Shown: piece after piece, positions 7,236 to 20,055 of the stretch
Layout of the letters: every line of letters starts with the position of its first letter
Position numbering within the stretch: the first letter of the stretch is position 1
Virus record (IMG/VR): IMGVR_UViG_3300031857_001738
Location: 1 to 20,304 of that record
Origin: a virus
Direction: 5' to 3' (one strand)
Length of the DNA: 20,304 bases
Made by a program: the position numbers and the translations under genes
Notes under the pieces: model-generated
What the model saw: only the letters and a program-made list of their open reading frames with translations
Told to the model about the DNA's origin: nothing
Database searches by the model: none

Positions 7236-8978
7236 GTGCCAACATTCGAGGATCTTGCAGCGCAGTTCCTGCGTAGTGGCCGTGGGTCGTGGCGTTCTCT
7301 TTGCCCGGAGTGCAGCCACACTAGACGAGGAGCGAACTCCAAGATCCGCATCTTAGCGTGGTCGCATGGAGATGCTGGCCCCGTCTACTACTGCCATCAC
7401 TGCAACGCATCTGGTGTCGTGCGAGAGGAGGAAGACTGTTTGAATTTAAATGACTTGGAAGAATACTTTGCAGCGCCGATCCCGGTAGCGCAAGTACCTG
7501 AAGAGATTCCGGCGCGTCCTGCTGAGCCTGTGCGCTTGCAAGCGGCACATCTGGAGTACTTGTCTAAGCGAGGGATCTCGCAGGAGACTGCGAATCTAGG
7601 CAAGCTGTACAGCGCCAGGAAGTTCTTCCGTACGGGAGGAGAGCAAGACTGTATTGCCTTTCCCTTCTACGATATGGATGGCGAGATCGCCTCCAGCAAG
7701 TACCGGAGTACAATCACCAAAGCCTTTAGCCAGGATCAGGGCGCAGGAGGTTTGTTATTCGGTCTGCACCAGACATTTGACACATCCAGGCCTCTCGTCA
7801 TTTGCGAAGGAGAGATGGATGCTTTATCTGTTGCGGAAGCAGGGCATCCGAATTGGGTGTCCGTTCCTGCTGGTGCGCCAGCGAAGAAAGAAGAAGGCAA
7901 CAGTCTGCGCTTCTCGTGGATCGCTGAACTCGAAGAGTTCCTGTCCAAATTTAGACAGTTCGTTCTGTGTGTAGACTCCGATACTCCAGGCAAGCAGCTT
8001 GCAGAAGAGATCGCTCGACGCCTGTCTCGCAGCAAGTGCATGACGGTAACGTACCCGAAGGGAAGCAAGGACGCTAACGATGTCCTCATGCAGCACGGGA
8101 AAGAAGTTCTGGCTAAAGTTCTTGACGAAGCAAAGCCCATCCCTCTCACCTCCCTCTACACTGCTGACCATTACTTCGATCAGGTCATGGAACTGTTCAC
8201 CAAAGGTGACGGTAGAGGAGCGAGTACAGGGTTTGTCGGCGTAGATCAACTGTATACCGTGGCGCGAGGACAGATGACCGTAGTCACGGGCGTGCCGTCA
8301 TCCGGTAAGTCGAACTTCCTCGACATGATCATGGTGAATCTGGCGCATCAGGTTGGGTGGAAGTTCGCGATAGCATCGATGGAGAACGAGCCATCGAAGC
8401 ACATCGCCAAGCTCTCGGAGATGCACCTGAAGAAACCCTTCTTCTCGCAGTGGCCTGGGTCCATGTCCATGCAGGAAGCAAAGGACGCTGTTGATTGGTG
8501 CAAGAAGCACTTCACCTTCATCGACTTCGCTACCAGCAGGGATCTGCCTACGGTAGATAGTCTGCTAGATCGCGCTCACGCAGCCGTTATGCGCTACGGG
8601 ATAGACGGCCTAGTCATCGACCCTTACAACTGTCTAGACCTGCACAGAGGGGATAAGCAGAGCGAAACAGACGCAGTCTCCGCGATGCTATCGAAGATCA
8701 GTGCCTTCGCTAAGGCATCGAACATTCATGTCTGGTTCGTGGCGCATCCTCAGAAGATGCAGACGATGGGAGGGAATCCTATCCCTGGAGGGTACGACAT
8801 CTCAGGTAGCGCACACTGGTTCAATAAGACTGACTGTGGGCTAACCGTGCATCGGAAAGATGCAGATGGATACGTCGAGATCCATAGCTGGAAGTGTAGA
8901 TTCAAATGGGTAGGCAAGCAGGGGATGACGCGATTGAAGTACGACATCCCCACGAGTACCTACTACGAGTTGCCCTAG
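7236..8978 (+). CDS. Primase-helicase, T7 gp4-like
   Basis: 580 residues starting with GTG; an in-frame TAG twelve bases upstream leaves no other start. Zinc ribbon C23, C26, C53, C56 (template recognition); TOPRIM primase core with E191 (VICEGEMDAL) and D247-x-D249 (VLCVDSDTPGKQ); RecA-like DnaB-type helicase with Walker A GVPSSGKS (352-359), IASMENEP, and Walker B around GLVIDPYN. It primes the lagging strand and unwinds the fork as a hexameric ring. Length is close to T7 gp4. It is the only + strand gene inside a - strand block. Its TAG stop overlaps the TAG stop of the opposing VWA gene (shared CTAG). An internal near-copy of the palindrome family lies at 7943-7956. Confidence 0.95.
   Translation: MPTFEDLAAQFLRSGRGSWRSLCPECSHTRRGANSKIRILAWSHGDAGPVYYCHHCNASGVVREEEDCLNLNDLEEYFAAPIPVAQVPEEIPARPAEPVRLQAAHLEYLSKRGISQETANLGKLYSARKFFRTGGEQDCIAFPFYDMDGEIASSKYRSTITKAFSQDQGAGGLLFGLHQTFDTSRPLVICEGEMDALSVAEAGHPNWVSVPAGAPAKKEEGNSLRFSWIAELEEFLSKFRQFVLCVDSDTPGKQLAEEIARRLSRSKCMTVTYPKGSKDANDVLMQHGKEVLAKVLDEAKPIPLTSLYTADHYFDQVMELFTKGDGRGASTGFVGVDQLYTVARGQMTVVTGVPSSGKSNFLDMIMVNLAHQVGWKFAIASMENEPSKHIAKLSEMHLKKPFFSQWPGSMSMQEAKDAVDWCKKHFTFIDFATSRDLPTVDSLLDRAHAAVMRYGIDGLVIDPYNCLDLHRGDKQSETDAVSAMLSKISAFAKASNIHVWFVAHPQKMQTMGGNPIPGGYDISGSAHWFNKTDCGLTVHRKDADGYVEIHSWKCRFKWVGKQGMTRLKYDIPTSTYYELP
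7943..7956. repeat. Palindrome family, intragenic copy 1 (one mismatch)
   Basis: GTCCAAATTTAGAC inside the primase-helicase gene, encoding part of LSKFRQ. One base differs from the GTCCAAATTTGGAC consensus. The surrounding 17-mer (7942-7958) is identical to the one at 10741-10757 on the other strand. Confidence 0.6.
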
Positions 8979-10159
8979 CTCTTAAGCCGGATGACCTCCC
9001 CAAAGGGAGGGCGGCTCTTGTAGTTGCCGACCTGGAACCACAACACCGGAACGCCTGGATCAGGCCCGAAGTCGTCGCATTCCATGTCGGTTAAGTAGAC
9101 AAACGCTTTAGGCTTGAGGTCGTGTTCGCTGGAATAATCGAACACTGGACGGAAGCGAGTGCCGCCACGCTGTGCTTGGAACTCGCTGACATCCATCGGT
9201 TGTCCTGGCTTGAACATCTCGTGCTTGTACACGGTAGTATCGCAGTACAACAGGTGTGTTTTCTCAGGCTTGACCTTGGTGAGGAAGTGATTGATTAGGC
9301 CCAGGAACATCTCCAGTTCTGCTTTGGATACAGAAGCGGAGGTATCCAGTCCGACTACCAGCTTGCCTACGCCATCCTTCAGGAGCGATGGCATATACAT
9401 ACCCTGACCCATGAAACGCCGGGACGGGCGCTGCCATGTGTAGTCTACCGGGAAGATGGGTGCCATAAACTTCTGGAAGAGATAACGGTAATCCTCTTCT
9501 GGCTCACGCACTTGTACGAGAAGATCCCGCAAGGCTCCCGGCATCTTGCCTGCTACTCGCGCAGTCTGTTCGGCCTGCGCTACGGTTGTCATGATCTGTT
9601 GCTCCAGGTCAGCACGTTCCTCTGCTGTACCACCAGCACTCAAGACATCGCCGTTGCTGTAGTCACGCTGCTGCTGCCCTTGGCCTTGGCCTTGGTCCTG
9701 GCTGGGTTGACCCTGCCCTTGTCCTTGACCGTTGCTAGGTTGGTTCTGCTTCTGCTGCTGCTGAGGGAGCAGCTTGTAGATCTGCTCCCATGCCATGCCT
9801 GCGTACCGATTATCCAGCAGCGCCATAGACGGTAGCTTGTACCCACAATCTCGTATCAAGATATTGATAGCGAAGTCCATCGCGATGTTTGCTTTGCGAT
9901 GGTCGTGGCTTTTGATACGCAACGGATGCATGAGGGCAACGTGCATGATCTCGTGGATGATAACCGCTTTGAGTTCGTCCTGAGTAATGGATAGAACAAA
10001 GTCAGGGTTATAGTAGAACCGCTTACCGTCTGTCGCCATGGTAGGGCAGGCTTTGTCAGCCTGCCACTCGTACCGGAGAGCGAGACTTCCGAAGAAGATC
10101 TCGCCCCCGATTGCCATCTGGACGGTCGTTTGCACGATACGTTTTGAGGCTTCTGACAT
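8975..10159 (-). CDS. HExxH metallopeptidase-like plus VWA domain protein (DUF2201-like)
   Basis: 394 residues from MSEASKRIVQ; the ATG shares TAATG with the preceding stop. The N-terminal domain has HEIMH (H69, E70, H73), a zinc-peptidase motif. Residues about 133-167 are a Gln/Gly-rich flexible linker made of short GQGQ-type repeats. The C-terminal half is a von Willebrand A domain with MIDAS motif D272-x-S274-x-S276 and a later YLTDME (D358). This order, putative metallopeptidase then VWA, matches the DUF2201 family from memory. VWA proteins of this kind pair with MoxR AAA+ ATPases as chaperone-like machines, and a MoxR gene lies two genes upstream. Substrate unknown. The stop overlaps the primase-helicase stop tail-to-tail. 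Confidence 0.88.
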   Translation of the reverse strand: MSEASKRIVQTTVQMAIGGEIFFGSLALRYEWQADKACPTMATDGKRFYYNPDFVLSITQDELKAVIIHEIMHVALMHPLRIKSHDHRKANIAMDFAINILIRDCGYKLPSMALLDNRYAGMAWEQIYKLLPQQQQKQNQPSNGQGQGQGQPSQDQGQGQGQQQRDYSNGDVLSAGGTAEERADLEQQIMTTVAQAEQTARVAGKMPGALRDLLVQVREPEEDYRYLFQKFMAPIFPVDYTWQRPSRRFMGQGMYMPSLLKDGVGKLVVGLDTSASVSKAELEMFLGLINHFLTKVKPEKTHLLYCDTTVYKHEMFKPGQPMDVSEFQAQRGGTRFRPVFDYSSEHDLKPKAFVYLTDMECDDFGPDPGVPVLWFQVGNYKSRPPFGEVIRLKS

Positions 10160-11052
10160 TACGCAAACATCCCCTTCATCTGGTTGATGATCTCTTCGGC
10201 CTCGTCGCCAAGTACCTTGGCCTGGGTAGCAACATCTTTGCGGGTCGAGTCGTTCTCCCGCAGGTAGTCGGCATTGTACTGGCACAACTCTTCGTCGATG
10301 CGACGAGCGATGCTATCGAGCCGCTCATCGCCGCCGACATTCAGCCGGGGAAGAAGAGAGGCAAGCTCCCGGATGTTCTCTACAAGCGAATCGCGGAAGG
10401 CCCCGGCACGTTCTCCCGTGTACCCCGTCAGCCTCTCGTGCATATGCTGGCACTGTTGCTGGACCCTCTCGAAGAGATCGACGCAAGCGGAGTTGTAGTT
10501 GTGCGACAGACGCTTCTGTAGATCCTGCTCCATCTGCTTCATCACATCCTTGCCCAGGGCAACTCGGAAGTCTCCAGACTCAGGCACCGGGGAGAAGCTG
10601 ATCTCCCACGAGAACTTGCTACGGATGGACTCGACAGGCGGGAAGTCATCCTGATTGAACAAACCGTTGAGACGATACTTGGCCTCGTTGATTACGTCCG
10701 GGTACTGCTTGACGAAAGTATTGAGAGCCTCCTCGTGCTTCTGTCTAAATTTGGACATCTCCTCCTGGTACTTGTTGAAGTTGGCGACAGGGAGGATGCG
10801 GACGCCCTCGGCATCATGCCAAGGGAGCGTCTGCTCGTAGTGCCACGCCCGTGCCAGCGAGATGTTGCTGGACAATTCCGTCATATACCGCTTGCTGGCA
10901 AGCTGCTTGTTGAAGCGGCCCACCTCCCCAGCGTTGGCGTTTGCGCCGTGATTCTGTTCGACCTCGGCAGTGGCCTTCTTGTCGAACTTCCGCGCCGTCC
11001 ATTGCGCGACAGAGAACCGGACGAGGATCGCTTTCTCAGAAAGAATAGACAT
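10159..11052 (-). CDS. Unknown helical protein of the MoxR-VWA operon (DUF3150-like?)
   Basis: 297 residues, AAGGAGAT ribosome site. Mostly helical and charged, opening LSEKAILVRFSVAQWTARKFDKKA, with a central WHYEQTLPWHDAEGVRILP segment and C-terminal long helices. From memory such proteins (DUF3150-like) occur between MoxR-type ATPase and VWA genes in phages and plasmids; I hold that name loosely. It lies 24 bp after the ATPase gene and overlaps the VWA gene by TAATG, so the three are probably made in fixed ratio and act together, perhaps as substrate adaptor. An intragenic palindrome copy lies at 10743-10756. Confidence 0.75.
   Translation of the reverse strand: MSILSEKAILVRFSVAQWTARKFDKKATAEVEQNHGANANAGEVGRFNKQLASKRYMTELSSNISLARAWHYEQTLPWHDAEGVRILPVANFNKYQEEMSKFRQKHEEALNTFVKQYPDVINEAKYRLNGLFNQDDFPPVESIRSKFSWEISFSPVPESGDFRVALGKDVMKQMEQDLQKRLSHNYNSACVDLFERVQQQCQHMHERLTGYTGERAGAFRDSLVENIRELASLLPRLNVGGDERLDSIARRIDEELCQYNADYLRENDSTRKDVATQAKVLGDEAEEIINQMKGMFA
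10743..10756. repeat. Palindrome family, intragenic copy 2 (one mismatch)
   Basis: On the + strand GTCTAAATTTGGAC, inside the 297-residue gene. On the coding strand it encodes MSKFRQ. The 17-mer 10741-10757 is the exact reverse complement of 7942-7958. Confidence 0.6.
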
Positions 11053-11076
11053 AGAATTATCTCCTTAGGTTGGGGG

Positions 11077-12105
11077 TTAGAACATCAGGTTGTTGTATTC
11101 GGGCTTGTTGTGCATAGCCAGAACGCTGGGGTGAGCGATTGCCGTTTGATCCTTGGTGCAAAGATCTTTAAGGAATAGGCAACCGTATTCGGGCGAGAGA
11201 CGGGTCATGTACGAGCAGATAGAGTGCGAGTACTTTGCGGCCCACGAGTTGGACAGATAGATGGATGTTGCGTACGAACTGCTTGGGTCAGTAGGCACCG
11301 GGACGTTCATAGGATCTGCCTGGATAGCAGACAGCGTAGGCAGCGACCTGTAGGTGCGGAGGAAGCCCAGGAACTCTGTGCCTGTACCTCTACCGATACA
11401 GCCGTGTACCAGCTCCGCAGCGACATCGGCGCTGGGTTCCTGATCCATGATGCGAGACAGCATCTCGACAGAACGAGGGGTACAGAATGCAAACTCACTC
11501 TTGTTTGGCTGTTGTACCAGAAGATCTTTACGGAAAGAGAAGAAGCTCCGGATCTCAGGCCGAATGTTGGGGGAGATAGGCTTAGGCGGGATGATGTCCA
11601 CCTTCATCGCGCTGCTGCCCTTAGCTGCCCACTCGTGCCAGCTATCGTAGCCAGACTCCAAGGTAATGTGCAGGAACCGATTGAGAAGAGGGACAGGAGG
11701 TTGGTTGTAGTTGCCACCGTCCTGGGCGCGGTTGCCTGTAGCGCAGATGTACGCGCCGTCAGGCATCTTGTAGTCTCCAAGCTCACGCTCCAGGACAAGT
11801 TGGTATAGGGCGCACTGTACAGACGGGGGCGCATCCGGCAACTCTTCAATCGCCATCAGCGTGTTGCCATCCTTCGGTAGCCAGCTTGGGATGGCACGGT
11901 GGCAGGTGCCGTCTTTGATGTACGGGATGCCCATGTCTACCGGATCCATCATGGTAGGCCGCACGTCGATGTGCGTCCTGCCTAGAGACTGCGCGACTTG
12001 GCGCACGATAGAGGACTTGCCGACCCCGGCTTGTCCCCAGATCCACATCGGGACACGGGCATTGATGGCGATCTGAATCGCCTTGACGAGTTCTGTTGAA
12101 AACAT
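11077..12105 (-). CDS. MoxR-type AAA+ ATPase
   Basis: 342 residues. Walker A GQAGVGKS (24-31), Walker B TLMAIEELPDA (about 82-92), sensor 1 CATGNR with N125, and a likely arginine finger in LLNRF (R143) give a complete AAA+ core of the MoxR/BchI-like class. A helical lid domain follows. These ATPases act with VWA-domain proteins to insert cofactors, remodel or activate complexes. The VWA partner is two genes downstream in the same operon. Start ATG is supported by AGGAGAT. A perfect hairpin (12118-12131) sits just upstream of the ribosome site. Confidence 0.92.
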   Translation of the reverse strand: MFSTELVKAIQIAINARVPMWIWGQAGVGKSSIVRQVAQSLGRTHIDVRPTMMDPVDMGIPYIKDGTCHRAIPSWLPKDGNTLMAIEELPDAPPSVQCALYQLVLERELGDYKMPDGAYICATGNRAQDGGNYNQPPVPLLNRFLHITLESGYDSWHEWAAKGSSAMKVDIIPPKPISPNIRPEIRSFFSFRKDLLVQQPNKSEFAFCTPRSVEMLSRIMDQEPSADVAAELVHGCIGRGTGTEFLGFLRTYRSLPTLSAIQADPMNVPVPTDPSSSYATSIYLSNSWAAKYSHSICSYMTRLSPEYGCLFLKDLCTKDQTAIAHPSVLAMHNKPEYNNLMF

Positions 12106-12117
12106 ATATCTCCTGTT

Positions 12118-12131
12118 GTGCTGGGCAGCAC
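12118..12131. repeat. Hairpin upstream of the MoxR gene
   Basis: GTGCTG-GG-CAGCAC, a perfect 6-bp inverted repeat about 5 bases upstream of the AGGAGAT site of the ATPase gene. It occupies the place that GTCCAAATTTGGAC takes in front of other clusters. It may be an operator or an mRNA element. Confidence 0.5.
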
Positions 12132-12153
12132 TTCTTTATTCTATCAAATGGTT

Positions 12154-12183
12154 TAGGGCAAGTGCAGTGCAGTACTTGCCCTA
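12154..12183 (-). terminator. Strong inter-cluster hairpin, possible terminator
   Basis: Perfect 10-bp stem TAGGGCAAGT / ACTTGCCCTA with a 10-base loop, between the end of the small-gene cluster (12191) and the MoxR gene (12105). No U-run follows in either direction, so it may be a weak or factor-assisted terminator, or an mRNA-stabilising or processing hairpin. Confidence 0.45.
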
Positions 12184-12190
12184 TAGTGTT

Positions 12191-12316
12191 TTACAGTAGC
12201 GAAATGATCCAGTAGATGATGGCGCATAATACTAGCGCAGCCACGCCTGACAGGATCATGCCAACAACGTCTATGATTGCTTCGTTTAGCTCGTCGATGA
12301 GCTTGAGAATCTTCAT
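12191..12316 (-). CDS. 41-aa single-TM membrane protein
   Basis: Reads MKILKLIDELNEAI and then a long hydrophobic stretch VVGMILSGVAALVLCAIIYW to the end. The N-terminus is short and amphipathic, followed by one transmembrane helix. The ATG overlaps the preceding stop as ATGA and is preceded by GGAGG about 10 bases upstream. It is the last gene of the cluster that starts at 12722. No family recognised. Plausible roles are a holin-like or host-membrane-targeting peptide, but nothing shows it directly. Confidence 0.7.
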   Translation of the reverse strand: MKILKLIDELNEAIIDVVGMILSGVAALVLCAIIYWIISLL

Positions 12317-12411
12317 AGATCTAGATTCCTCCACGCCCTCCACGCAATGAAGTACATTCCCACGAGCAGTGGTGCGATGAGAATGAGTTCGATGATTTCT
12401 TTAACTGTCAT
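12313..12411 (-). CDS. 32-aa single-TM membrane protein
   Basis: Reads MTVKEIIELILIAPLLVGMY and then FIAWRAWRNLDL: a hydrophobic helix with a positively charged C-terminal end, suggesting the C-terminus stays in the cytoplasm. Start and stop both overlap neighbours as ATGA, so it is translationally coupled on both sides. The ribosome site GGAGGG lies about 12 bases upstream. No family recognised. Confidence 0.65.
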   Translation of the reverse strand: MTVKEIIELILIAPLLVGMYFIAWRAWRNLDL

Positions 12412-12722
12412 TGGATCGTTTGCCCTCCAACGTACGGCGAGAAGCCTGCGCCATCGAGATCTCGCGACCTCATAACGTCGAGCAGGTGCCGGATCTCCTG
12501 CTCGTCTTGGTCAAGCTGGGCAACATCCAGTCGGTACTGGAGTTCGTCGCCGTGGTCCAGCGCCAGCACTAGGGCGCGAACTTTCTCGACGAGGTAGGTG
12601 GAATGAATCCCATCCTTGGTCTGATCGAGGTACCCATCGGGTCTGCATATCATGAGCAGTTGGCTGAGCGCCCACTCCTCAAAGGTCATGGCTTGGCACG
12701 TTCCTAATGTGAAATCTTGCAT
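12408..12722 (-). CDS. Hypothetical helical protein (104 aa)
   Basis: Starts MQDFTLGTCQAMTFEEWALSQ. The sequence is acidic and helical (VEKVRALVLALDHGDELQYR, AQLDQDEQEIRHLLDVMRS). No known family. It is the first gene of a cluster with two tiny membrane proteins, coupled by ATGA. Ribosome site GGAGATACT directly abuts the upstream palindrome at 12733-12746. Confidence 0.75.
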   Translation of the reverse strand: MQDFTLGTCQAMTFEEWALSQLLMICRPDGYLDQTKDGIHSTYLVEKVRALVLALDHGDELQYRLDVAQLDQDEQEIRHLLDVMRSRDLDGAGFSPYVGGQTIQ

Positions 12723-12732
12723 AGTATCTCCT

Positions 12733-12746
12733 GTCCAAATTTGGAC
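12733..12746. repeat. Palindrome GTCCAAATTTGGAC, copy A
   Basis: Perfect 14-bp palindrome, ending 10 bp from the ATG at 12722. The ribosome site AGGAG follows it directly on the - strand. Confidence 0.85.
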
Positions 12747-12747
12747 A

Positions 12748-12855
12748 CTATCGGTTGAAGAAATAGAATGCCGCACCCAGGATTACGATGTACGGCAAAT
12801 AGGCGAAGCAGAAGTGTGTAACGGTGTCGAGGATGTGGTTTATACGCTCACGCAT
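12748..12855 (-). CDS. 35-aa single-TM membrane protein
   Basis: Reads MRERINHILDTVTHFCFAYLP and then YIVILGAAFYFFNR. A basic N-terminus is followed by an aromatic-rich hydrophobic helix. It overlaps the end of the preceding 57-aa gene by 8 bp and has only a weak GTGAG ribosome site, so it probably depends on coupling. It ends one base before palindrome copy A. It is the last gene of the cluster starting at 13804. No family recognised. Confidence 0.6.
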   Translation of the reverse strand: MRERINHILDTVTHFCFAYLPYIVILGAAFYFFNR

Positions 12856-13021
12856 ACTCACACTCTCGCACCTTGCGCCATCCCGTTGTACTCCGGCGCT
12901 CGATAACGACAGCGCCTTCCGGCATAGGATGACCGAAAGGGAAGGTGCCGTAGGTGCCGTCAGGTAGACGGACTAAAGCAGGGTTGTAGCAGTGGGGGCC
13001 TTCCCGCCTTGTGTGGCTCAT
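12848..13021 (-). CDS. Hypothetical protein (57 aa)
   Basis: Starts MSHTRREGPHCYNPALVRLP and continues with DGTYGTFPFGHPMPEGAVV, a small probably all-beta protein with a basic C-terminal end. The start overlaps the previous stop as ATGA; AGGAG lies upstream. The 17 bases around its start codon are identical to those around the start of the 124-aa gene (see findings), so it also begins MSHT. No function known. Confidence 0.7.
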   Translation of the reverse strand: MSHTRREGPHCYNPALVRLPDGTYGTFPFGHPMPEGAVVIERRSTTGWRKVRECEYA

Positions 13022-13392
13022 GCTTTTACTCCTGTCGCTTTCTCGTATGCCGCATCCGCACGGCAGCGGATATCGGCGAACAGCTCGACTAGCTCATCCG
13101 CTGAATAGGGTTGGCCGTTCCCTGCCGCGTTGATAATATCGGCCAGGGCATCGGCGCATTCCTTAGTGGTCGCCAATAACTCCGGCGCGGCGGCGATTAG
13201 ACGGGCGTTGGCGGGTTCAAACTCGAACAGATCATCGGCTAATGCCACACACTTATGGGTAGTCAAGCTCCTGATTGCGGTTATAGGTCGCTTCATGTAG
13301 TGATCCGGCTCCTCCGGGCTTGGGGTGTACAATTCCGATTGCCATGACTTCCAGACTCGCTCCGCTGCCCATGGTCCTGGTGTGTGGCTCAT
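13018..13392 (-). CDS. Conserved phage protein, 'HTPGPW/NARLIAAAPELL' family
   Basis: 124 residues from MSHTPGPWAAERVW, with NARLIAAAPELLATTKECADAL in the middle and a helical C-terminus. This pattern is very widespread in phages and prophages of Proteobacteria and Actinobacteria but has no established function. The start is supported by GGAGG 6 bases upstream and by ATGA overlap with the preceding gene. The longer upstream frame adds residues that belong to the shadow of the neighbouring gene. Confidence 0.85.
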   Translation of the reverse strand: MSHTPGPWAAERVWKSWQSELYTPSPEEPDHYMKRPITAIRSLTTHKCVALADDLFEFEPANARLIAAAPELLATTKECADALADIINAAGNGQPYSADELVELFADIRCRADAAYEKATGVKA

Positions 13393-13592
13393 GCTTTCCT
13401 CCACTTGCTTGCAAGGGTGCAGGATCGGGGAGTTACGTTGAGGTCTGCTACCAGACCTCTCTCCATGTCTACTGCCATGTACTGCATGATCCAGCACTGC
13501 GCCAACTCTTTCAGCTGGCTCAGTGTGTTGGCATATCCTATGTCATCCCACTTGTCATTGTCGGTTGATCGGGACATTAAAATGTAGCGCAT
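13389..13592 (-). CDS. Hypothetical protein (67 aa)
   Basis: Starts MRYILMSRSTDNDKWDDIGYANTLSQLKELAQ. It looks like a small alpha/beta protein with a strand, an acidic loop and an amphipathic helix. The ribosome site GGGGGAG is close. TAATG overlap with the upstream gene and ATGA with the downstream one put it in the middle of a five-gene coupled cluster. No family recognised. Confidence 0.7.
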   Translation of the reverse strand: MRYILMSRSTDNDKWDDIGYANTLSQLKELAQCWIMQYMAVDMERGLVADLNVTPRSCTLASKWRKA

Positions 13593-13804
13593 TACTCCCC
13601 CTTCTCCAGCCGCGCCGCCATCATCTGTGCCTGATGGATTGCTTCATCCTTAGGCGTGGACCTACCGAAGTCGTCGTCGGAGGTACCGTCCTCGGCGCGA
13701 GCGCCGTCTACGAAGACGGAGTAGTTCAGCGCCTTCCCTCTCCAGCACCGGACGAATATGTGTTGTCCGGTCTTGCTTTGCATCTCGTACTCAAATGTAT
13801 ACAT
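13592..13804 (-). CDS. Hypothetical protein (70 aa)
   Basis: Starts MYTFEYEMQSKTGQHIFVRC. Three short strands are followed by an acidic loop (GTSDDDFGRSTPKDE) and a C-terminal helix (AIHQAQMMAARLEKGE). It is the first gene of a five-gene coupled cluster. AAAGGAG lies between palindrome copy B and the ATG. No family recognised. Confidence 0.7.
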   Translation of the reverse strand: MYTFEYEMQSKTGQHIFVRCWRGKALNYSVFVDGARAEDGTSDDDFGRSTPKDEAIHQAQMMAARLEKGE

Positions 13805-13816
13805 ATGTTCTCCTTT

Positions 13817-13830
13817 GTCCAAATTTGGAC
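13817..13830. repeat. Palindrome GTCCAAATTTGGAC, copy B
   Basis: Perfect copy 12 bp upstream of the ATG at 13804, followed on the - strand by AAAGGAG. On its other side lies GTTGGTTGGTTA (13835-13846), a TTGG tandem repeat that recurs near copies E and F. Confidence 0.85.
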
Positions 13831-13843
13831 ACTTGTTGGTTGG

Positions 13844-14116
13844 TTAGAAATGGTTAAGCTCTACTGCTTTATCGCTCAAGTATTCGGCAATCTGCTCAAG
13901 TTCTTTTAGAACATTGCACAAACTATCTCTCCGCAGGAGATACTCTCCGAAGGCCAGCCCCAGGGCATCGCCGCCCTGGGGGTAGTAGTCTCGCCCGTTG
14001 GGCGCTGTTTTATCCAGCGCCTCTATGGCGGTTCTCAGTGCGTCCATGGCGTTTATGGCATCCCCCAAGAGGGTCGTCGCATTAGTGCCGTTTAGATGTA
14101 TAGTTGGCAGGGTCAT
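13844..14116 (-). CDS. Hypothetical protein (90 aa)
   Basis: Starts MTLPTIHLNGTNATTLLGDA. Two helices flank a GRDYYPQGGDALGLAFGEYL segment. Small phage proteins of this layout are common, but I know no function. It overlaps the end of the 138-aa gene by 35 bp and has no clear ribosome site, so expression would depend on coupling to that gene. Confidence 0.6.
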   Translation of the reverse strand: MTLPTIHLNGTNATTLLGDAINAMDALRTAIEALDKTAPNGRDYYPQGGDALGLAFGEYLLRRDSLCNVLKELEQIAEYLSDKAVELNHF

Positions 14117-14498
14117 ATATCGGGTTGATTGCCTCTACTTTTGGAGATTGTTCTTGTACTTTCAGGAACACTGTCTCTGCGTGAGTGACAGGTTGGCCTG
14201 ATAGGATGTTGACAAATGTATCGTGCAGGTATGGGTTGTACTGTACGTTAGAAGAAGTGTCGGATGGTGCGTAGTAACAAGCGAAGATGCCCTCGCAGTA
14301 TGCGTGGACGTTCTTTCTCTTCTCCCTCAGGACACGATTGCGTCCCGATTGGTTTACGACAAACTCGACATCGTGAAGCATGATGTTGTCGGCGTAGTCT
14401 ACGACACGTTTGGTTCTTGGGTCTCGTACGCTGAAGGTCTTGCGGTGCAGGTTGAAATATACCTGCACCTTCTTTCCTGCCATGTGCGGGAGTATCAT
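14082..14498 (-). CDS. Conserved phage protein (138 aa), unknown function
   Basis: Starts MILPHMAGKKVQVYFNLHRK. The stretch KVQVYFNLHRKTFSVRDPRT, then RVVDYADNIMLHDVEFVV and GRNRVLREKRKNVHAYCEG, matches from memory a widespread phage family with no known role. The C-terminal third looks unique to this phage. The ribosome site AGGAGGACAG lies directly after palindrome copy C on the - strand. Confidence 0.8.
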   Translation of the reverse strand: MILPHMAGKKVQVYFNLHRKTFSVRDPRTKRVVDYADNIMLHDVEFVVNQSGRNRVLREKRKNVHAYCEGIFACYYAPSDTSSNVQYNPYLHDTFVNILSGQPVTHAETVFLKVQEQSPKVEAINPIYDPANYTSKRH

Positions 14499-14881
14499 CT
14501 GTCCTCCTGTCCAAATTTGGACACTAGCAAGCGGCTCGCACGGGGTGAAGGCCTGTACCGCTTGCGCTGGGCTGCATCCATATAAGACTGGAGGCAGCGT
14601 TGCATTGTGGCATGGGTTATGCGCGTCCACTTCAGAGCGTTACGCATAGCCCACTCCCAGGCCGCAGCTTCACGGTCTAGCCGTGCCTTGGGTTGGTCGC
14701 CTACGATGTGACCGATCTCGTGAAGAGCAACAGCGTAGGTCTTCTGTGTCTTGACAGGACGCAAGCGAACGCGCCTAGTTTTTACCCAGGCGCGTCCACT
14801 CGTCCCATCTTTCCATGTCACTGCTATTGTGTGTTGCAGTAGCAGGGATATGATGTGGTTGGCGAGTTGTTTTGTGTTCAT
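14495..14881 (-). CDS. HEIGH zinc-metallopeptidase-like protein (128 aa)
   Basis: Residues 47-75 read KTYAVALHEIGHIVGDQPKA and then RLDREAAAWEWA. HEIGH (54-58) is an HExxH zinc motif and E71 is the expected third ligand, the layout of ImmA/IrrE-like and related small phage metalloproteases. No DNA-binding domain is attached. ImmA-type enzymes cut phage repressors; whether this one cuts a repressor is unknown. The start ATG is only 4 bp from palindrome copy D; the best GGAGG site lies beyond the palindrome, about 24 bases upstream. The 3' end reads through copy C. Confidence 0.8.
   Translation of the reverse strand: MNTKQLANHIISLLLQHTIAVTWKDGTSGRAWVKTRRVRLRPVKTQKTYAVALHEIGHIVGDQPKARLDREAAAWEWAMRNALKWTRITHATMQRCLQSYMDAAQRKRYRPSPRASRLLVSKFGQEDR
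14509..14522. repeat. Palindrome GTCCAAATTTGGAC, copy C
   Basis: Perfect copy 10 bp upstream of the ATG at 14498 and followed by AGGAGG on the - strand. It also forms the last codons of the HEIGH gene, encoding SKFGQ. Confidence 0.85.
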
Positions 14882-14885
14882 AAGT

Positions 14886-14899
14886 GTCCAAATTTAGAC
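14886..14899. repeat. Palindrome family, copy D (one mismatch)
   Basis: On the + strand GTCCAAATTTAGAC, flanked symmetrically by AGT and ACT. It sits 4 bp upstream of the HEIGH gene start. The mismatched base makes the TAA stop codon of the clamp-like gene (14894-14896). The ribosome site GGAGG lies on the far side of the palindrome. Confidence 0.75.
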
Positions 14900-15457
14900 A
14901 CTGTACCTCCTGGCTTTGTACCCAGCAGCTTCTCGCACGGGCATCAAGAGAGACTGCACGTCCTGCCCGTCTTCCCGCGCAGATTCGAGGATGATGGCGT
15001 TGTTGTTGGGATTGTGCGGGTGAACATACATCCGCACGCAATCATCCGCAGCGCCGTGGATCTCCAGGAGATCCTTCATCATCTTGGGGTTGAAGACGAT
15101 GCAGATGTGGTCACCCGTCTTAGACGGGATAACCCGCAGGTAATCCGGGAAGCCTACTTCCAGCGGCTCGAAGGTAGTCTTACTCGCCCTGGTGCGGAAG
15201 GATATGTCTGCGGCAGTGGCCCCCATAACCTCGATGGGTTCCTTCCCTGCCATCTTAGACAGCGAGATGGCATCTGTCGCTTTCAGGACTACGTGACGGT
15301 CCATCTTGTCCTGTACGAACAGGTGCTTGACCCGTGTCAGACGGTGGTTGTCCGTTGCCACTGTCTCTTTATTGGTAATGAAGATCCCGTTCAGGGTGAA
15401 CCGGGAAGCCTCCTTCGATACGATCTTCTGGATCATCAGGCTTAGTTTGGTAAGCAT
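14894..15457 (-). CDS. Short beta-sliding-clamp-like protein (DnaN-like)
   Basis: 187 residues from MLTKLSLMIQ. Residues 18-48 (RFTLNGIFITNKETVATDNHRLTRV in outline) match the LNG...ATDGHRL region of DnaN domain 2. FPDYLRVIP (103-111) matches the FPDYRRVLP at the end of that domain. FNPKMMKDLL and the final LMPVRE match the last half of domain 3 (MPMRL end). Domain 1 and the first half of domain 3 seem absent, against about 366 residues in cellular DnaN. It could form a smaller ring or act on the host clamp site. Ribosome site AGGAGAAAA. Its stop codon lies inside palindrome copy D. Confidence 0.8.
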   Translation of the reverse strand: MLTKLSLMIQKIVSKEASRFTLNGIFITNKETVATDNHRLTRVKHLFVQDKMDRHVVLKATDAISLSKMAGKEPIEVMGATAADISFRTRASKTTFEPLEVGFPDYLRVIPSKTGDHICIVFNPKMMKDLLEIHGAADDCVRMYVHPHNPNNNAIILESAREDGQDVQSLLMPVREAAGYKARRYSV

Positions 15458-15478
15458 AGGTTTTCTCCTAGTTGGTTT

Positions 15479-15492
15479 GTCCAAATTTGGAC
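15479..15492. repeat. Palindrome GTCCAAATTTGGAC, copy E
   Basis: Perfect copy 21 bp upstream of the clamp-like gene start. AACCAACTAGGAG lies between it and the ATG on the - strand. Confidence 0.85.
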
Positions 15493-15493
15493 A

Positions 15494-15537
15494 GAGTACA
15501 GTGTACTCATCCAAGCACACTCATAGAATGTGCTTGG
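15494..15537. repeat. Two hairpins between clusters
   Basis: GAGTAC-AGT-GTACTC at 15494-15508 and a 9-bp stem CCAAGCACA / TGTGCTTGG at 15511-15537 with a 9-base loop. They fill the gap between the end of the 96-aa gene (15546) and palindrome copy E. No U-run follows, so termination is uncertain. Confidence 0.55.
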
Positions 15538-15545
15538 TCAGTACG

Positions 15546-15836
15546 CTACTCGTAGCGTGGCCGCTTCTCAGGGAAGTACTTTGGCGCGTGATCTTCATGC
15601 ACCTCAGCAAAGTACAACCCCTCAGAAAGTACGCTGCTCATGTCAGGCCGATCTAGATTAGGCCCGAATGTGCGGGAATTTAGCTTGTCATTCAAGCGCC
15701 TACTGTATTCGTAGGCCTTGTCTTCTGAGCGAAACAGGCGAACTGTTCGCGCCAGTTCACCTACCGTGTAATACCAACCGCCCTCTTCTGGCCCACCGTA
15801 GGCGAGGTCTTGGAGATATACGCTGACAAGATACAT
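15546..15836 (-). CDS. Conserved phage protein (96 aa), unknown function
   Basis: Starts MYLVSVYLQDLAYGGPEEGG and continues WYYTVGELARTVRLFRSEDKAYEYSRRLN, then SVLSEGLYFAEVHE and a C-terminal PRYE. From memory it belongs to a recurring phage family without known function. It looks like a small alpha/beta protein. AGGAGGAAC lies directly upstream and 8 bp separate it from the Cys-rich gene, so it is the last member of the cluster starting at 16419. Confidence 0.8.
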   Translation of the reverse strand: MYLVSVYLQDLAYGGPEEGGWYYTVGELARTVRLFRSEDKAYEYSRRLNDKLNSRTFGPNLDRPDMSSVLSEGLYFAEVHEDHAPKYFPEKRPRYE

Positions 15837-15844
15837 AGTTCCTC

Positions 15845-16126
15845 CTAGCACCCGCAGCAGGGATAGTCCTCGTGACCGCACGCCATGCGCCCTACACATC
15901 TCCCTTCTGGAGTGTACAGGCCGCGAGGGTCAGCCTTGCTGGCGTAGTAGCCAGCAGGGCGATAGGGCGAGTAAAGGCGTTGGCCTGTCGCCTTGCCCTT
16001 GCGCTTTGGCGCTGGGCAGGTTGGGCAGTAGATGCCCAACAACTTCTGGTAGTTAGCGCGAGATCCCGCGCTGATAGAGGCACCGCACGATCCGCAGGTG
16101 CCGGGATATTTTGTTGTTAGTACCAT
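15845..16126 (-). CDS. Cys-rich zinc-ribbon-like protein (93 aa)
   Basis: Starts MVLTTKYPGTCGSCGASISA. The CGSCG pair (about 10-14) and CPTCP (about 34-38) form a zinc ribbon of the kind used for nucleic-acid or protein contacts. A second Cys cluster, CVGRMACGHEDYPCCGC, closes the chain, and the middle is basic (PAPKRKGKATGQRLY). The start overlaps the end of the 100-aa gene by 10 bp. No ribosome site is clear, so translation is probably coupled. Possible nucleic-acid-binding regulator; unproven. Confidence 0.75.
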   Translation of the reverse strand: MVLTTKYPGTCGSCGASISAGSRANYQKLLGIYCPTCPAPKRKGKATGQRLYSPYRPAGYYASKADPRGLYTPEGRCVGRMACGHEDYPCCGC

Positions 16127-16419
16127 GATTTTTCTAGTACCGTGCAAAACTGGTTCCACGCATGGCCGCGCCGGGTCCAAGGGTTGCCCGCTCTGATGGC
16201 CCGCGCCATAGATCCGGTCATCACGTCATCTTCCGGGTGCTGGTCGCGCCGGAACTCTGGCTCGTTGCCGTCCCAATTGGACGTGTTAGCGCCGTCGAGT
16301 ATCCCGACCACGTCTGCAGCGGCCCAGTCGGGCCGATCGTAGGAGTGGCAGTAGTCGGGCGTGATCAGCGTGATCCCGCCACCGTTGTCGAACAGCAGTT
16401 CGAATTTTATGTAATTCAT
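16117..16419 (-). CDS. Hypothetical protein (100 aa)
   Basis: Starts MNYIKFELLFDNGGGITLIT and continues with an acidic, Trp- and Asp-rich middle (ANTSNWDGNEPEFRRDQHPEDDV) and a C-terminal helix. The ratio of acidic to basic residues and the length leave open a DNA-mimic or interaction protein, but there is no direct support. TAGGAG precedes the start, behind a TTGG repeat and palindrome copy F. Confidence 0.75.
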   Translation of the reverse strand: MNYIKFELLFDNGGGITLITPDYCHSYDRPDWAAADVVGILDGANTSNWDGNEPEFRRDQHPEDDVMTGSMARAIRAGNPWTRRGHAWNQFCTVLEKSWY

Positions 16420-16448
16420 AGTAGGCTCCTATTGGTTGGTTGGTGTTT

Positions 16449-16480
16449 AGACTGTCCAAATTTGGACACTTAGACAGTCT
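16449..16480. repeat. Inverted repeat enclosing palindrome copy F
   Basis: AGACTGTC (16449-16456) and GACAGTCT (16473-16480) are perfect 8-bp complements that can pair with the palindrome in the loop. The alternative is pairing within the palindrome itself. The repeat overlaps the last codons of the 257-aa gene. Confidence 0.5.
16454..16467. repeat. Palindrome GTCCAAATTTGGAC, copy F
   Basis: Perfect copy 34 bp upstream of the ATG at 16419, the most distant of the set. TTGGTTGGTTGGTG (16432-16445) lies between it and the ribosome site. Confidence 0.85.
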
Positions 16481-17243
16481 GGATCTGAACGAGCTTGGAG
16501 GCACGGGCAAGAGCTTGCATGGCAAGCCGACCGTGCTTCTGGATCACGATGTCCTTCCGGGCGTCCGTATTGCCACGCTTGCCATCGCACAGACAGCAAT
16601 CGTGACAGGTTGTCAGGTTCCCGGCCTCGTCACTCTTAGGACACACTATCTCCCCCAACATCCTGGCGCTGTTCCCGTAGGGCGACACACGGAACGTGCG
16701 CCAACCTGCTAGCTTGGCCCGTACTTGTTCTGTAGGGCTGTCTACGCTAGCCATCAGCCAGCGGGATAGGTCAGGACGGTTTACCCACTGATGGGTATAT
16801 CCTGTCCACTTCTTCGAGGAAGATGCGATCAAGGGGATGATCTCGTCATCCTGAATGAAGGCACCGTCTCCGTATGTGCCGATACGGGTACGTCTATTGC
16901 GGAATACCCTGGGGTACTCCGACTTGGTCAGGTAGGGATAGTTGCCACGTTGGTAGCAATCCCATACCGCCGTTACACTTTTCTGCAAGTTAACGTAGCA
17001 CTCCCGGTCTGCTACCTTGCCATCTACGATGGTTCCACGGAGTTTACAATCTCCGCAGACGTGTTCATCCGCGCCGGAATAGGTGGCGCTTGCCGGGTTG
17101 GCGTGACGATACAGGATATAAACCTGTATCATCGGGCCTGTCCCGGTGTTCTGGGATGGACGGAGAAAGCCCGTAGCGATTACTACGGTGTTCTCCGTCT
17201 CTTCAAGAATGTACCCCTGGGCAAGGGGCGTTTTCTTCTTCAT
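16470..17243 (-). CDS. Conserved Cys-rich phage protein (257 aa)
   Basis: Starts MKKKTPLAQGYILEETENTV. It contains CGDCKLRGTIVDGK (about 63-76), a downstream CYVNLQKSVTAVW, SYPRVF-like Tyr/Arg-rich stretches, and a second Cys pair set TTCHDCCLCDG near the C-terminus. Two metal sites seem likely. I have seen similar proteins in phages (CGDC plus CHDCCLC layout) but know no function. Ribosome site GGAGGACAAG lies between palindrome copy G and the ATG. It stands alone in its cluster. Confidence 0.8.
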   Translation of the reverse strand: MKKKTPLAQGYILEETENTVVIATGFLRPSQNTGTGPMIQVYILYRHANPASATYSGADEHVCGDCKLRGTIVDGKVADRECYVNLQKSVTAVWDCYQRGNYPYLTKSEYPRVFRNRRTRIGTYGDGAFIQDDEIIPLIASSSKKWTGYTHQWVNRPDLSRWLMASVDSPTEQVRAKLAGWRTFRVSPYGNSARMLGEIVCPKSDEAGNLTTCHDCCLCDGKRGNTDARKDIVIQKHGRLAMQALARASKLVQIQTV

Positions 17244-17259
17244 GTCTTGTCCTCCAAGT

Positions 17260-17273
17260 GTCCAAATTTGGAC
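17260..17273. repeat. Palindrome GTCCAAATTTGGAC, copy G
   Basis: Perfect copy 16 bp upstream of the ATG at 17243, with symmetric flanks AGT on the left and AGT on the right. Four bases separate it from the stop of the 27-aa gene. Confidence 0.85.
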
Positions 17274-17277
17274 AGTT

Positions 17278-19509: not shown

Positions 19510-20055
19510 ATGGCAAAGAAAATAGATCGAATAGCGGAATTAGAAAGATTAATGACGCCTAAACAGGTGAAGCTTGCGAGAGCGTTAGCCGCTGGAGGGA
19601 TCCCGAAGGTGCAAGCGTATAAACAGGTCTACGGATGGAATGGGAAGAGTGCAAATAGTGCGCAGGTTGCCGCAACTCGAGCGGCGGGGAACTCTAAGGT
19701 AAGTCTATTGGCGAGTGAGTTGAGAGATAGGGATAACAGCCTGTTATGGGCAGATAAGGAGAAGTTCCGAAAATGGCTCATGAAGGGCATCACCGATACA
19801 GCATCCACCACTGAATCAGATATTACCCGATTGAAAGCGCTGGAACTTGCGGGCCGGACCCGATACGCAAGTTTGTTCGAGGAACCGGCAGCAAATGAGA
19901 CCACTGCTCAAACCCATGGCGCGATAGTCGATGCAATCCGCGCCAAACTGCAAGCGTTGATCGGCGGTTCGCTTGCTCCGGGCGATGCTAGCCCCGGTAC
20001 CTTGACGCTGGAGGCGGTGGCAGAGGACCCCACGGGGGCAGGGGAGGGGGAGTAG
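19510..20055 (+). CDS. terS: Terminase small subunit
   Basis: 181 residues from MAKKIDRIAELERLMTPKQV. The N-terminal pattern LMTPKQVKLARALAAGGIPK followed by VQAYKQVYG is the helix-turn-helix of phage small terminases, which recognises the packaging site. AQVAATRAAGNSKVSLLASEL and the helical WADKEKFRKWLMKGI section fit the oligomerising core. The C-terminal tail (from about residue 135) is Ala/Gly/Pro/Glu-rich. The ATG is chosen over an upstream GTG because the family homology begins here; the ribosome site is weak (GAGTGG). The large subunit would be expected beyond the right edge. The 3' end runs into a G-quadruplex-type tract. Confidence 0.85.
   Translation: MAKKIDRIAELERLMTPKQVKLARALAAGGIPKVQAYKQVYGWNGKSANSAQVAATRAAGNSKVSLLASELRDRDNSLLWADKEKFRKWLMKGITDTASTTESDITRLKALELAGRTRYASLFEEPAANETTAQTHGAIVDAIRAKLQALIGGSLAPGDASPGTLTLEAVAEDPTGAGEGE

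Follow-up and report, generated by a model that had tools for sequence, protein, structure and literature searches.

A short phage relative of the bacterial beta clamp retains the peptide cleft and lacks the standard dimer interface

The short clamp gene and its surroundings

The window, meaning the whole stretch of DNA analysed here, is itself a virus record of 20,304 bases and carries a gene for a short clamp relative on the minus strand at 14894–15457, recognised by profile matches. Its open reading frame starts with an ATG at 15457, runs through 187 codons (14897–15457) and ends in a stop codon at 14894–14896, with AGGAG, a likely ribosome-binding site, on the minus strand at 15465–15469, 12 nt upstream of the ATG. 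Alignment and modelling divide the product into three half-domains with approximate boundaries, all encoded on the minus strand. Half-domain 2A (residues ~1–50; 15308–15457) holds R19, L22, T35, N37, H38, R39 and L40, which correspond to the listed cleft positions R152, L155, T172, G174, H175, R176 and L177 of E. coli DnaN. Half-domain 2B and its linker (residues ~51–112; 15122–15307) contribute P104, R108 and V109 (E. coli P242, R246 and V247), and half-domain 3B (residues ~113–176; 14930–15121), also delimited by hhalign, contributes N123, M126, N152, L170, M172, P173, V174 and R175 (E. coli N320, Y323, V344, V360, M362, P363, M364 and R365). After the MPVR cleft strand comes an 11-residue C-terminal tail (residues 177–187; 14897–14929, minus strand; pLDDT <50), which is common to the close relatives, is absent from E. 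coli DnaN and, beginning at the cleft, might cover or lengthen it. The last five residues of the window protein are RRYSV, as in three of the four close relatives; in the fourth, L005, they are LRYSV.

A palindrome, TGTCCAAATTTGGACA, lies in the leader of the short clamp gene at 15478–15493, and a copy with one mismatch at 14885–14900 spans the stop codon and precedes the next gene. Nine copies with at most two mismatches occur in the window, at 7942, 10742, 12732, 13816, 14508, 14885, 15478, 16453 and 17259 (span 7942–17274), against none in 100 shuffles; seven are just 5' of minus-strand gene starts, mostly ahead of a GGAG-type site, and two are inside coding sequence. A relative (G003) has the form TGTCTAAATTTAGACA, with both arms altered in concert, also before its short clamp gene. 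The palindrome is suggestive of an operator or an RNA hairpin in the gene leader. Exact copies are present in 34 viral stretches, with clusters in another contig of 61 kb and in small contigs, whose fetched stretches contained no short clamp, and neither string was found in the open-licence literature.

A profile scan of the window genes identified a Toprim/DnaB-type primase-helicase, an ERF recombinase and a dUTPase. The minus-strand region at 8975–12105 is a MoxR-VWA-like cassette within the phage, with genes for a DUF2201 metallopeptidase/VWA protein, a DUF3150-like protein (weak match) and a MoxR-like AAA ATPase (weak match) in series. The 56.9-kb relative G001 gave no DNA polymerase by PF00476, PF07733 or PF00136, and its eight scanned large ORFs, a set that does not include a 2377-aa ORF, contained a terminase and no polymerase. 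Among 55 distinct short-clamp records, 7 showed PolA (two lists that share one record gave 3 of 14 and 4 of 42). PolB (PF00136) and the clamp loader PF13177 were each found in none of 34 records, and Pol III alpha in none of 14. Because polymerases are missing from most records tested, most short-clamp carriers appear to use the host polymerase.

A family of short phage proteins with a clamp fold

The window protein matched NCBIfam dnaN TIGR00663 over residues 12–129 (E 3.4e-9; 36.1 bits, below the curated cut-off of 137.65), Pfam DNA_pol3_beta_2 (PF02767; E 0.0015; 19.2 bits, below the curated cut-off of 27) and PHROG 947, a processivity factor, over residues 10–132 (E 2.2e-11). In a phmmer search of PDB sequences (best E 4.8e-4) every match was to a bacterial clamp or a fusion containing one, and the clamp match exceeds chance. 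When 48 short members were compared with nine full-length clamps by hhalign, a single alignment (probability 99.8, E 4e-28) ran across domain 2, jumped 3A and resumed in 3B through to the end, and the short-family profile matched E. coli DnaN in two places, 136–294 and 314–366 (i-E 1.2e-7). One MAFFT alignment matched the C-terminal segment to 3A and the final strand rather than to 3B; the profile comparison and the motif FN..Y/M..D.L favour 3B as the second piece. An earlier note on this DNA had read the chain as DnaN domain 2 and the last half of domain 3 with domain 1 gone, and both the profiles and hhalign bear this out, assigning the protein to the clamp superfamily and not to an unrelated family.

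The AlphaFold2 model of the window protein, built on an alignment of 44 rows drawn from the window and IMG/VR, is of low confidence (pLDDT 66.5, pTM 0.69). It contains three beta-alpha-beta-beta-beta units, of which the third has no clear first strand. Its best PDB matches are beta clamps, with Elizabethkingia 8dt6_A at Z 10.8 and E. coli 8vat_G residues 128–366 at Z 10.6 (3.3 A, 161 residues aligned), and PCNA 1plq gave Z 10.2. The relative L083 was modelled with high confidence (pLDDT 93.8, pTM 0.89) and aligned 165 of its 178 residues with E. coli 6fvl_D 126–366 (Z 14.0, 2.9 A); its 2B unit is made up entirely of strands and has no helix, so one ring-lining helix would be lost. Both predicted folds are clamp folds, as the earlier reading of the sequence anticipated. 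Alignment and secondary structure together give three half-domains, and two complete domains of the PCNA type are absent. The BFVD structure library contains more phage proteins, of 160–215 aa, that share this fold.

The window protein belongs to a widespread phage family of about 160–190 residues and is not a lone oddity. With the window protein as query, tblastn found matches in 49 phage records, all below 60% identity; in 29 of these a single place covered at least 80% of the query. An alignment query found matches in 216 phage records, with coverage of at least 80% in 191, as well as an additional short relative of 191 aa (L012). IMG/VR holds four close relatives (L002–L005, 68–93% identity), and a scan of it with a Roufvirus-type alignment matched 393 stretches, 262 of them encoding relatives. 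From these 262 we kept 80 loci for analysis, which encode 69 distinct proteins of 158–190 aa (start chosen by script) and include one, L043, that looks frameshifted. A scan for close relatives in 84,980 bacterial and archaeal species, one genome each, returned 49 stretches and no relatives. We also observed a longer relative of the window lineage, L014 (9989–10717; 243 aa), which has a long additional C-terminal tail and lies on a 56.8-kb contig that carries a 916-aa PolA frame; a scan with this protein as query recovered itself alone.

Phage records annotate members of the family as "hypothetical", as "DNA polymerase III beta subunit" or as "RusA-like Holliday junction resolvase". Since these genes are already known, often under the beta-subunit name, short phage clamps as such are not new. 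The best PHROG match of the window protein, phrog_3007 (E 1.7e-17, residues 15–176, profile 19–186 of 190), is labelled RusA-like, as are many phage records. We rejected the resolvase identity, to which we give next to no chance: none of 44 members matched a RusA family in Pfam at E 0.01, nor did the window protein match the RusA profile even at E 10, whereas 43 of the 44 matched TIGR00663 and 30 matched PF02767 (E 0.01), and the fold is that of a clamp in both models. The match itself is sound, with members such as Roufvirus pIS4-A gp46 sharing the 2A-2B-3B build over a near full-length profile match, although the window protein is only ~25–30% identical to them; it is the label that appears wrong. 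One example is found at 19980–20516 of L006, and the mislabel is carried in many phage records, whose "RusA-like resolvase" annotation is thereby corrected.

Cleft, ring contacts and origin

For E. coli beta, 18 cleft residues and seven interface residues (I78, R103, F106, I272, L273, E298 and E304) are listed in the review PMC11139829, and the comparisons that follow refer to those lists. All 18 cleft positions are covered in each of 48 non-redundant short members aligned with E. coli DnaN, and mean identity to E. coli is 0.814 at the cleft versus 0.235 in the 146 other covered columns, a cleft value reached by 0 of 20000 random column draws. A subset of 16 sequences below 60% identity gave 0.774 at the cleft versus 0.220 elsewhere. 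No part of the family is better conserved than the cleft residues. Five of the listed residues (R152, L155, P242, M362 and P363, E. coli numbering) are invariant in 48 of 48 members, while V344 (identity 0.02) and L177 (0.27) are the weakest cleft positions. The window protein agrees with E. coli at 13 of the 18 listed positions and 29 of the 146 others, its five cleft changes being G174N, Y323M, V344N, V360L and M364V. Short members keep 11–17 of the listed residues (median 15) and the eight full-length phage clamps examined keep 15–17 of 18; cleft conservation, being high in full-length phage clamps too, reads as retention and not as a sign of a decoy role.

Domain 1 and half-domain 3A are missing in all 48 members with the same deletion limits, and the seven listed dimer-interface residues fall within the deleted parts in every one. 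The retained half-domains 2A, 2B and 3B hold every published cleft residue, and domain 1 and 3A hold the published interface residues; the deletion follows function, because the cleft is retained and the ring contacts are gone. A separate domain 1 (PF00712) was found elsewhere in the record in 0 of 45 short-clamp records, many of which are fragments that give no proof for a particular phage, and in three of three full-length controls. Standard ring assembly is probably impossible for such a protein, which stands outside DnaN proper, with neither the three-domain build nor the interface. The earlier note had also proposed that the protein may form a different ring, bind clamp-binding peptides as a competitor or hijack the host clamp: peptide binding is well supported by the sequence, the cleft being the part retained, and hijack through the normal ring interface seems unlikely, as the deletions remove that interface on both its sides. 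A search of the open-licence literature on short, truncated or mini phage clamps found no description of the 2A-2B-3B form, its retained cleft or its lost interface, which is weak evidence of absence.

The absence of 1.5 domains, together with the full-length clamps encoded by other phages, could mean that a full-length clamp gene has decayed here to a fragment, or that the short gene is one half of a split clamp. We rejected this reading and hold it to be very improbable, given the steady length of the protein over 80 loci (with L043 apparently frameshifted), purifying selection and the failure to find domain 1 elsewhere in the 45 records, with deletion limits identical in 48 of 48 members as a further point against it. 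The short clamp ORF is under purifying selection, with dN/dS of 0.11–0.33 in six pairs from four sequences. In a tree built on 28 of the 57 rows (19 of the 48 short clamps and all 9 full-length ones), the window protein and L004 are placed next to two full-length phage clamps, L013 and L018 (96/89), and apart from the other short ones, and the branch of the window lineage is long (1.48). If this placement is right, the one-and-a-half-domain form would have arisen twice, though a single clade of short clamps was not rejected by the AU test (p 0.352).

Possible roles of a clamp without the standard ring

In bacteria, proteins of DNA replication and repair share the clamp cleft as a dock, and the cleft is also a target for antibiotics. 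From its sequence, it is likely that the short clamp binds clamp-binding peptides at all, and we see roughly an even chance that it is a beta-clamp peptide cleft freed from the ring, acting as a competitor or adaptor rather than as a ring. Such a protein would bind the QLxLF-type motifs of host proteins in solution and without encircling DNA, with Pol III alpha, clamp-loader delta, Hda, Pol II/IV/V and MutL as candidate clients. Host proteins are the more likely clients because phage ORFs carry no clear excess of clamp-binding motifs: 0 were found versus 0.4 expected in the window and 1 versus 1.7 in G001, and counts were not above shuffles in the window, G001, G005, pIS4-A and Vibrio pieces, with 3 versus 1.3 expected in G003 and 2 versus 0.6 in the phage 4316 piece. 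Competition with the host clamp might then redirect or withhold its partners, and meanwhile phage replication could perhaps be driven by the phage primase-helicase and recombination genes. The short clamp might inhibit, recruit or tether. In PMC11139829, clamp-loader delta is reported to bind a monomeric clamp variant ~50 times tighter than the dimer, and an isolated cleft could therefore be a strong competitor.

Several observations weigh against a free cleft. In the window protein 5 of the 18 listed cleft positions are changed, the 11-residue tail begins right at the cleft and the model is of low confidence (66.5), and a pure inhibitor would be of little gain to a phage that depends on host Pol III. 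Half-domain 3B is also left without its packing partner 3A, which hints at an oligomer. An unusual sliding clamp could be built if the missing 3A were replaced by 3B' from a second chain, paired with 3B, and two such dimers, each the size of three domains, closed through their 2B edges, giving a tetrameric ring in which three half-domains in each of four chains make 12, the number in bacterial and PCNA rings. Like-with-like pairing is conceivable, as the half-domain is a pseudo-symmetric repeat; the core face of 3B would otherwise be exposed, and a length of about 160–190 residues has been maintained despite great divergence. We nevertheless consider this ring unlikely, since 2B has no ring-lining helix in the confident L083 model, the family is near neutral in net charge with no evident rise in basic inner residues, and the clamp loader was not found in any of the 34 records, so that a foreign ring would need opening by the host loader. 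We know of no clamp with a tetrameric assembly of 12 half-domains.

The short clamp could also be a processivity factor that forms no ring, akin to the herpesvirus factors with a clamp fold, such as the monomeric UL42, holding a polymerase through its cleft and DNA through a surface of its own. In Acinetobacter phage 4316 its gene lies immediately downstream of a DNA polymerase I gene, an adjacency that suits a processivity role and counts against a free cleft, and PolA is present in the 7 records noted above; the window protein, moreover, has a pI of 9.1 versus 5.2 for E. coli DnaN. We give this alternative a low probability, as PolA was not seen in the other 48 of 55 records, PolB in any of 34 or Pol III alpha in any of 14, and with a median pI of 7.6 (range 5.4–9.7) the family as a whole does not share a basic DNA-binding face.

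The free cleft and the tetramer can be joined in a broader proposal that we advance tentatively and with some doubt, that phages trimmed a host replication hub to its docking pocket, possibly twice independently, either as a soluble decoy or adaptor for proteins with clamp-binding motifs or as a tetrameric ring of 12 half-domains. If the protein is indeed a natural and widespread ring-less cleft of 180 residues, it would be a ready tool for capturing clamp clients, a possible phage route to host take-over and a test of the minimal working clamp.

Compared with E. coli DnaN (residues 126–366), the short clamp has the same fold for domain 2 and the second half of domain 3 and the whole motif cleft, but it has no domain 1, no 3A and no standard dimer interface, has 187 versus 366 residues and carries the additional C-terminal tail. 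The full-length clamps of Rhizobium phage 16-3 (p081) and Paracoccus phage Psul1 are likewise phage-borne and have the same cleft, yet they have three domains and 378 and 384 residues, respectively. PCNA also has a clamp fold with fewer domains than DnaN, but forms a trimer ring of two full domains per chain as opposed to 1.5 domains in the short clamp; T4 gp45 and herpes UL42/UL44 likewise have the fold in two full domains, fewer than DnaN. The clamp inhibitor Gp168, according to the title of entry 7evp, is another phage protein aimed at the clamp hub, although it binds the clamp, whereas the short clamp resembles the clamp itself.

In the three phages pIS4-A, AB4P2 and Tbat1_6 the short clamp gene is part of a small run of genes that includes one for a ParB-like protein; at L006, L007 and L008 the ParB-like gene sits close upstream and has the same orientation.
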